Source of the DNA: a virus
Length of the DNA: 22,131 bases
Strand: one strand, 5' to 3'
Virus record (IMG/VR): IMGVR_UViG_3300044621_000398
Span: 1 to 22,131 of that record
Positions 18,979 to 19,918 of this stretch are shown here, in pieces (the first letter of the stretch is position 1; every line of letters starts with the position of its first letter). The notes under the pieces were generated by a model. That model ran no database searches. It was not told the DNA's origin and saw only the letters and a list, made by a program, of their open reading frames with translations. Both the position numbers and the translations under genes were made by a program.

Positions 18979-19043
18979 AAAATCAATAAAAAAAGGTTAA
19001 ATTTAATTAAAAAGGTATTAAAAAACATATATTGCTGTTTTAT

Positions 19044-19079
19044 TTGATTCTCAATAAGTGTTATGTTATTGAGAATCAA
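19044..19079. repeat. 14-bp perfect inverted repeat (hairpin)
   Basis: TTGATTCTCAATAA (19044-19057), loop GTGTTATG, and the perfect complement (19066-19079). No T tract follows on either side, so it is not a typical terminator. Its core CTCAATAA recurs in the hairpin at 19822-19854. The sequence before it, 18979-19043, is AT-rich and holds no gene. Confidence 0.8.
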
Positions 19080-19105
19080 TTGAGTATTATTGTTGAGAAT
19101 AGAGT

Positions 19106-19210
19106 CTTCTAAGTGCTTATAAATCCCTTCTAAGTGCTTATAAATCCCTTCTAAGTGCTTATAAATCCCTTCTAAGTGCTTATAAATCCCTTCTAAGTGC
19201 TTATAAATCC
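19106..19210. repeat. five tandem 21-bp repeats
   Basis: Five identical 21-bp units, each starting CTTCTAAGTGC and containing TTATAAATCC, lie head to tail from 19106 to 19210, followed by a partial CTTC. Each unit contains TATAAATC, one base off the late box TATAAATA. No spacers separate the units, so this is not a CRISPR array. The array lies downstream of a minus-strand promoter. The flank at 19211-19300 is GC-rich compared with the window. Confidence 0.9.
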
Positions 19211-19233
19211 CTTCGGGTCTTGTGACCTTTACC

Positions 19234-19262
19234 TGTATATCATAAGACGCGCAGTTTGTCAA
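19234..19262 (-). promoter_or_regulatory. minus-strand promoter reading into the tandem repeats
   Basis: On the minus strand: TTGACA (19262-19257), exactly 17 bases, TATACA (19239-19234). Transcription would start near 19227, pass a short GGTC-acaa-GACC hairpin and then the five repeats. It is the only good minus-strand promoter noticed in the window. Confidence 0.55.
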
Positions 19263-19314
19263 GCCCCACGGCGGCGAAAATTTCCCCCGACCCACACAGT
19301 TTTATAAGATCTAG

Positions 19315-19577
19315 TCGAGATATAATGTTAGTATTATAACACAATCTCGACGAGAATACATATATACTCTTATAAATCTCGACGAGACTCACATCTAGAT
19401 TAGATTGCATCTCGTCGAGATTTGTGCTATACTCATACAGTCACTCACAGGATCTCGACGAGCTATGTACGACGACTACGATCTCGACTATACATACAGT
19501 AACGATTATGGACAAGATCTCGACGAGTATACACAAGATCTCGACGAGGATTATGCACGAGATACACATGATCTCGA
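19315..19577. repeat. cluster of ATCTCGACGAG sites (operator-like)
   Basis: Full 11-mers ATCTCGACGAG occur at 19344-19354, 19376-19386, 19452-19462, 19517-19527 and 19538-19548, with an inverted, palindromic ATCTCGTCGAGAT at 19409-19421. Partial copies are at 19315-19321, 19481-19488, 19558-19563 and 19571-19577. They cover the upstream region, a promoter spacer, the leader and the coding part of the gene at 19465. The motif does not occur elsewhere in the window as far as I saw. A TATAAT at 19321-19326 abuts the first partial site. Confidence 0.8.
19405..19433 (+). promoter_or_regulatory. promoter with operator in its spacer
   Basis: -35 TTGCAT (19405-19410), 17 bases, -10 TATACT (19428-19433). 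The palindrome ATCTCGTCGAGAT at 19409-19421 covers the end of the -35 and most of the spacer, where a bound protein would block RNA polymerase. It drives the gene at 19465. Confidence 0.7.
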
Positions 19578-19605
19578 AGCACTTGCATATCGTCATTATG
19601 CATGA
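19465..19605 (+). CDS. tiny, very acidic Tyr/Asp-rich protein (46 aa)
   Basis: The ATG at 19465 follows an ATCTCGACGAG site in the leader. Of 46 residues, 12 are Asp, 3 Glu and 9 Tyr; only two are Arg and none Lys. DLDEY and DLDED repeats are encoded by the ATCTCGACGAG DNA motif, read as (D)LDE. Such an acidic, aromatic small protein could mimic DNA, as some phage inhibitors do, or bind a basic regulator. A second promoter with the same TTGCAT -35 begins within its end. The function is inference; the composition is seen directly. Confidence 0.65.
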   Translation: MYDDYDLDYTYSNDYGQDLDEYTQDLDEDYARDTHDLEALAYRHYA

Positions 19606-19638: not shown

Positions 19639-19791
19639 ATGCTAGCACAAAAGCGCATCATACAGGTTACACTAGACATCATGTGTTATGATGATCTAGA
19701 TCTAGATGATATTAAATGGCGTGAGTTATTGCAACTCGAACCTGGGGAAGATCTCCATTGTAAGGTAAAAGAGTTCGATCCGTTCGAGTAA
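19639..19791 (+). CDS. hypothetical protein (50 aa)
   Basis: The product starts MLAQKRIIQVTLDIMCYDDL and continues DLDDIKWRELLQLEPGEDLH with CKVKEFDPFE. It looks like a beta-alpha-beta unit with an acidic DDLDLDD turn. I associate the 'YDD.D...I.W..LLQLE' pattern with small T4-like cyanophage proteins of unknown function. Followed directly by a dyad and a terminator-like hairpin. Confidence 0.7.
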   Translation: MLAQKRIIQVTLDIMCYDDLDLDDIKWRELLQLEPGEDLHCKVKEFDPFE

Positions 19792-19821: not shown

Positions 19822-19860
19822 TCATTCTCAATAAGGGTTTCTTATTGAGAATGAATATTT
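19822..19860 (+). terminator. terminator-like hairpin
   Basis: TCATTCTCAATAAG (19822-19835), loop GGTTT, perfect complement (19841-19854), then ATATTTTATG. The 14-pair stem and T-rich tail suggest termination after the 19639 gene. The stem core equals that of the hairpin at 19044. Confidence 0.6.
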
Positions 19861-19879
19861 TATGGTAGGAGGAGTGGCG

Positions 19880-19918
19880 ATGCATTTTCGTCAGCAGGGA
19901 TACCTCTCCCCTCATTGA
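19880..19918 (+). CDS. possible 12-residue leader peptide
   Basis: AGGAGGAG (19867-19874), the strongest ribosome binding site in the window, lies 5 nt before an ATG opening only 12 codons (MHFRQQGYLSPH) and a TGA. The peptide is too short for a normal gene but could act as a leader peptide ahead of the hairpin and promoter at 19962-20023. The remaining gap 19919-19961 shows no clear signal. Confidence 0.3.
   Translation: MHFRQQGYLSPH

Follow-up and report, generated by a model that had tools for sequence, protein, structure and literature searches.

The window, that is, the whole stretch of 22,131 nucleotides that was analysed, comes from IMG/VR and represents 22 kb of a T4-like cyanophage, whose nearest annotated relative is Synechococcus phage S-SRM01 (Kyanoviridae). 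Among the viruses that infect Synechococcus and Prochlorococcus, T4-like cyanophages are abundant. The strongest tandem array of the window lies at 19106..19214, where TRF reports a period of 21 bp, 5.2 copies, 100% identity, and a score of 218; the perfect array of five 21-bp units claimed in a preliminary description of this DNA is thus real. Each unit consists of two related 9-mers (CTTCTAAGT and CTTATAAAT), and the array can be read as ten CTTMTAART 9-mers (starting at 19106, 19116, 19127, 19137, etc.) that follow each other at alternating distances of 10 and 11 bp, the mean of 10.5 bp being one turn of B-DNA each. The late-box-like TATAAATC that had been pointed out earlier is present in every unit.

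A predicted promoter on the minus strand (19234..19262) is aimed into the array. It reads TTGACA-N17-TATACA, with the −35 hexamer at 19262-19257, the −10 hexamer at 19239-19234, a spacer of 17 bp, and a TGn motif (TGA) before the −10 hexamer. The RNA starting there would open with a GGUC-ACAA-GACC hairpin (19216..19227, minus strand), and between its predicted start and the inverted repeat described below neither ATG nor GTG occurs, in agreement with the earlier remark that no usable start codon lies downstream. A minus-strand protein encoded through the array was considered and rejected: the frame in question (106 aa, 19295-18975, GTG start), which would encode EGIYKHL repeats, already begins ahead of the promoter, and it requires a period of 21 bp, which is absent from many relatives; in many of them the period is no multiple of 3.

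Beyond the array, the minus-strand transcript would reach a third box, TTGAGAAT, at 19093..19100 (an equivalent third copy exists in many relatives), a 14-bp inverted repeat of two TTCTCAATAA boxes at 19044..19079, and an AT-rich block (TTAAATTTAATTAAAAAGGTATTAAAAAACATATAT) at 18999..19033, which on the basis of AT content and duplex stability is presumed to be a DNA unwinding element. The 14-bp hairpin noted earlier at 19044 exists and folds; it has no T run after either arm and so does not qualify as an intrinsic terminator. A second copy of the TTCTCAATAAG inverted repeat is found at 19822-19854, such that the pair flanks the element at a distance of ~780 bp, as if one protein held both ends.

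On the other side of the minus-strand promoter, seven palindromes of the CTCGWCGAG type (19311..19548) are predicted binding sites. In relatives, no such palindrome lies upstream of the promoter block, and all are within 0-400 bp on its downstream side. The plus strand, too, has a readable promoter at 19405..19433 (TTGCAT-N17-TATACT, the −10 hexamer being preceded by TGC), the spacer of which is filled by a CTCGTCGAG palindrome. TTGACA-type plus promoters occur on the corresponding side in P-SSM2 and in two further loci (L010 and L079). Two small plus-strand genes follow, the unannotated ORF1 (19465..19605; 46 aa, acidic, tyrosine-rich, MYDDYDLDYTYSNDYGQDLDEY...), which is conserved in many relatives, and ORF2 (19639..19791; 50 aa), a conserved marker gene adjoining the element with a relative in at least 33 phage records. 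Within ORF1 the palindrome CTCGACGAG codes for Leu-Asp-Glu and is thus a motif of the DNA and of the protein at once. Further along, AGGAGGAGTGGCGATG...CCTCTCCCC could form a hairpin (19869-19916), which has no match in Rfam, and a similar sequence is present in one related locus (L103) and near the P-SSM2 element. The short words GTGGCACAAG and CTGGCACA recur at gene ends between 19790 and 22030 and also in relatives.

Related loci were gathered around a downstream gene, around the promoter block, and around ORF1, and cultured phages were added via ORF2; the layout of the window is shared in all four collections. Two sets were used for counting, namely 113 non-redundant loci among the matches listed, which are mutually related by descent, and 60 non-redundant ORF1-anchored loci, also among the matches listed, in whose choice the promoter was not used. 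In cultured phages the element was placed at 52.6 kb in Syn9, 19.3 kb in S-PM2, 65.9 kb in P-SSM2, 58.1 kb in S-SM2, and 151.3 kb in S-SKS1, while a search near ORF2 in S-CAM7, S-CAM9, and S-B05 yielded no element. Judged by sequence comparison, the array with its backward-facing promoter is one version of a compact element present in many ocean and freshwater cyanobacterial viruses.

It is conservation that makes the minus-strand promoter significant, since the window alone would not exceed chance: it contains 21 promoter-like matches versus 20.3 expected from shuffles, and a simple promoter scan missed the minus-strand promoter, whose TATACA lacks the final T. Among the 60 ORF1-anchored loci, by contrast, a loose promoter pattern is found on the minus strand in 58 (shuffle mean, 8.65) and a strict one (TTGAC[AT]-N14/15-TGN-TANNNT) in 42 (shuffle mean, 0.1), so the promoter proposed earlier is present also where it played no part in selection. 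Ten complete cyanophage genomes hold any antisense strict match, and in nine the element promoter is the sole one: in S-SM2, S-SCSM1, S-SKS1, Bellamy, SynMITS9220M01, Sf-CH8, and S-SRM01 the element had been located via neighbouring genes or DNA similarity without use of the promoter, and in P-TIM68 and P-SSM2 it was reached via this single match and then recognized by the AT-rich block and the promoter-adjacent sequence. In the tenth genome, S-B05, strict matches occur on either strand, and no element was identified. When 14 phages are lined up, TGN-TA stands at the expected spacing in all 14 and TTGACA in 13, with a spacer of 17 bp (18 bp in SynMITS9220M01). The promoter is degenerate in S-PM2, Syn9, and S-T4, which counts against the reading of the element as a replication origin that is developed below.

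Tandem arrays were called in 66 of the 113 element regions versus 2 of 113 control regions. Promoter and array are therefore conserved jointly, a result whose absence had been named beforehand as grounds for giving up the claim. Most array periods in relatives fall at 10-12, 20-24, 31-34, 43-46, and 65-66 bp, which are multiples of ~11 bp. Autocorrelation gives the same period peaks with troughs between them, and the pair distances of 9-mers agree; because the loci are related, the z-scores of this helical period are inflated, yet the pattern itself is plain. The unit sequence itself varies widely among relatives while the helical register is kept, which argues for DNA geometry rather than RNA base-pairing. 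As for copy number, the five copies of the window recur in two near-identical contigs. S-SM2, Bellamy, and Sf-CH8 have a minimal array only, so that arrays are an elaboration of a core formed by promoter, boxes, and AT-rich block.

Measured from the −35 hexamer over the 113 loci, the promoter block occupies −50 to 0, TTATAAA/TTCTAAA repeats lie mostly at −100 to −50, the centre of the box cluster lies at −150 to −100, and the TTAAAAA-type AT-rich block lies at −250 to −150, with an AT content of at most 77%. The order is hence promoter, helically phased repeats, box cluster, and AT-rich block. It is not universal, because in S-PM2 the AT-rich block sits between the boxes and the promoter. An AT-rich block can also be read in S-SM2, S-PM2, S-SCSM1, S-T4, and P-TIM68. 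The duplex stability minimum of the element coincides with it, and in S-SKS1 0.04% of 100-bp windows, at seven other places, are less stable than the AT-rich part.

The main rival of an origin is a divergent early regulatory region, in which the RNA from the minus promoter would be non-coding and regulatory, acting either as a sponge or in antisense to the last part of the upstream gene, and the DnaA, TTCTCAAT, and CTCGWCGAG sites would serve as operators. The divergent orientation of the two promoters and the palindrome within the plus-promoter spacer fit this explanation; the predicted fold of the RNA is better than that of shuffled sequences (z = −4.0), an effect of the inverted repeat and the array repeats, and S-PM2 is known to have an antisense RNA, CfrI (PMC2984593). 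However, the repeat sequence differs among relatives, the array periods track the DNA helix, the upstream gene is not constant among relatives, and neither DnaA boxes nor an AT-rich block are called for by such an RNA. The opening GGTC/GACC hairpin proposed earlier does exist at 19216-19227 and folds, but it is weakly kept, being complete in 12 of 113 loci, and Rfam gave no match. The more specific suggestion of a sponge with five equal sites is unlikely, as the unit sequence turns over, the period is helical, and some phages manage with a minimal array. Altogether, we regard a regulatory RNA as an unlikely, though serious, explanation.

Two kinds of box occur in the cluster, namely the DnaA box, whose cyanobacterial form is TTTTCCACA (PMC4674748), and TTCTCAAT. 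Among the 113 loci 29 have DnaA boxes only, 56 have TTCTCAAT only, 2 have both, and 26 have neither (Fisher p = 1e-9 for exclusion, kinship of the loci being ignored). TTCTCAAT is enriched 100-200 bp from the −35 hexamer, where DnaA boxes sit in other loci. In related elements, DnaA boxes and TTCTCAATA boxes thus replace each other and almost never occur together. On inspection of its sequence, the window's own element has no DnaA box and carries TTCTCAATA boxes instead. The downstream TTCTCAATAAG copy was observed in 30 of 46 TTCTCAAT-type elements versus 1 of 25 DnaA-type elements (Fisher, 2e-7).

DnaA boxes are concentrated at the element: 50 lie within 450 bp beside the promoter (~42 kb in total) versus 12 in ~424 kb of other sampled DNA. 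Genome-wide, DnaA boxes less than 100 bp apart occur only at the element in S-SM2 and S-SKS1, where it was located without use of DnaA boxes, and in S-PM2 and Syn9, where it was located via these boxes and then recognized by the AT-rich block and promoter block. In DSL-LC03, located in the same way as the latter two, the close same-strand pairs of DnaA boxes likewise lie only at the element, and 7 of the 10 TTTTCCACA copies of the genome fall within 457 bp. Some DnaA boxes of S-PM2 are overlain by annotated tRNA genes (AJ630128.1, 18506-19333); ARAGORN detected no tRNA in this interval, and the annotation looks misplaced.

Such clusters of up to seven DnaA boxes, on DNA that multiplies in the cell, could also suggest that the phage soaks up host DnaA and thereby halts host replication, the promoter keeping the DNA open. 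This kind of titration seems improbable, given that 56 of 113 elements have TTCTCAAT instead and 26 have neither box, that 2-3 boxes per genome seem few, and that the promoter and the AT-rich block are left unexplained. Least probable is the decoy for the late sigma factor gp55 that had been suggested on account of TATAAATC in each unit: the window does contain 10 TATAAATM versus 2.9 expected, 6 of them TATAAATC and 5 of those in the array, but the published cyanophage late box is NATAAATA (PMC2984593), which the units do not match, related units read TATAAATG or TATAAACC and seldom TATAAATA, the two bases after TATAAA in array regions are TG in 83 cases, CC in 30, and TA in just 11, some arrays have no TATAAA, and in S-SKS1 TATAAATA lies on the coding strand in 21 of 21 cases, as real late promoters would.

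We therefore favour a replication origin: the element is probably a transcription-activated, repeat-bearing phage origin with the array and the promoter at its centre. Early after infection, host RNA polymerase would fire the conserved minus promoter, and the transcript would run through the one-box-per-turn array and the cluster of DnaA or TTCTCAATA boxes into the AT-rich block. This block would be opened by transcription-driven supercoiling together with proteins that occupy the boxes and one face of the repeat array. By analogy with T4 oriF, the RNA would then stay in place as an R-loop and prime the leading strand; alternatively, transcription would only activate opening. The cyanobacterial DnaA boxes in the elements of many relatives would be bound by the DnaA of the host, and the TTCTCAATA boxes that take their place in the phage of the window by another, putative protein.

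Strand composition lends this origin no consistent support. At the element, neither GC nor AT skew turns in a consistent way; recombination is a further mode of replication in T4-like phages, and almost every gene runs in one direction. In P-SSM2 (65.7-65.9 kb) the maximum of the detrended GC skew lies 186 bp from the element, but an origin would call for the opposite sign, and nothing similar is seen in five further genomes. A bias toward G-rich, R-loop-prone RNA is not general either, plus-strand C exceeding G in 20 of 68 array regions. The missing DnaA box in the window's own element, the failure to identify a Rep-like initiator, and the negative result near ORF2 in S-CAM7, S-CAM9, and S-B05 likewise count against an origin. 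In its favour, a single theta origin has been predicted for Syn9 (PMC2984593); it is the one predicted cyanophage origin mentioned in the open literature that was searched, and part of the element may have been described earlier.

More tentatively, and with rather less confidence than for origin function of the element as such, it can be suggested that the Kyanoviridae possess one conserved origin, with DnaA boxes in many lineages and a TTCTCAATA initiator box in others, that is opened by the sole strong antisense promoter of the genome; such an origin would unite traits of T4 R-loop origins with those of iteron/DnaA origins, its initiator site having been swapped in evolution. If true, the exchange of one box type for the other would illustrate the way in which initiator sites are replaced. 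T4-like phages may then use host DnaA, and their replication would be coupled to the condition of the cell they infect. The element provides an exact site for origin testing in the cultured phages Syn9, S-PM2, P-SSM2, S-SM2, and S-SKS1.

Among known systems, the S-PM2 antisense RNA CfrI shares transcription against the gene direction in a cyanophage; it lies at psbA and a homing endonuclease gene, whereas the promoter discussed here faces an array and an AT-rich block. In the cyanobacterial oriC (PMC4674748), TTTTCCACA boxes likewise adjoin AT-rich DNA, a combination of DnaA-box cluster and AT-rich unwinding element that was found in 29 + 2 of the 113 elements and in five cultured phages, but not in the window; here, however, the genome is that of a phage, no dnaN adjoins, and TTCTCAATA replaces the boxes in about half of the relatives. 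Iteron origins (RK2 oriV, P1, F; PMC4980987) have 3-7 direct repeats of 17-22 bp in helical register, and RK2-type plasmid origins combine DnaA boxes, an unwinding element, and 17-22 bp repeats (PMC4980987). At least three direct repeats in helical register are present here, too, though minimally so in S-SM2, Bellamy, and Sf-CH8. Unlike in iteron plasmids, no Rep-like initiator was identified, the unit sequence varies fast, a strong promoter is built in, and the phage genome has its own T4-like replisome.

T4 oriE has direct repeats and depends on an early promoter (PMC3016281). The element resembles it in its evenly spaced direct repeats, early-mode promoter, adjoining small ORFs, and syntenic repeats in relatives, the likeness being one of layout; unit sequence and length differ, the oriE repeats measuring 12 nt versus boxes of 10-11 bp or units of 20-22 bp here. 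Unlike oriE, the element also has a defined AT-rich block and boxes of the DnaA or TTCTCAATA type. T4 oriF and oriG consist of a promoter and an AT-rich unwinding element, and their transcript forms an R-loop that primes the leading strand (PMC3016281). A unit of ~100 bp with a promoter directed into such an AT-rich element is also what is found here, although repeats and box clusters lie between the two and an R-loop would be expected by analogy only. Furthermore, oriF and oriG use a MotA middle promoter, whereas the cyanophage promoter is sigma70-like and of early type, with a near-consensus −35 TTGACA in 13 of 14 genomes; cyanomyoviruses lack motA (PMC2984593). It is because features of T4 oriF/oriG, oriE, and RK2-type origins are combined in one element that we propose a transcription-activated origin at this site.
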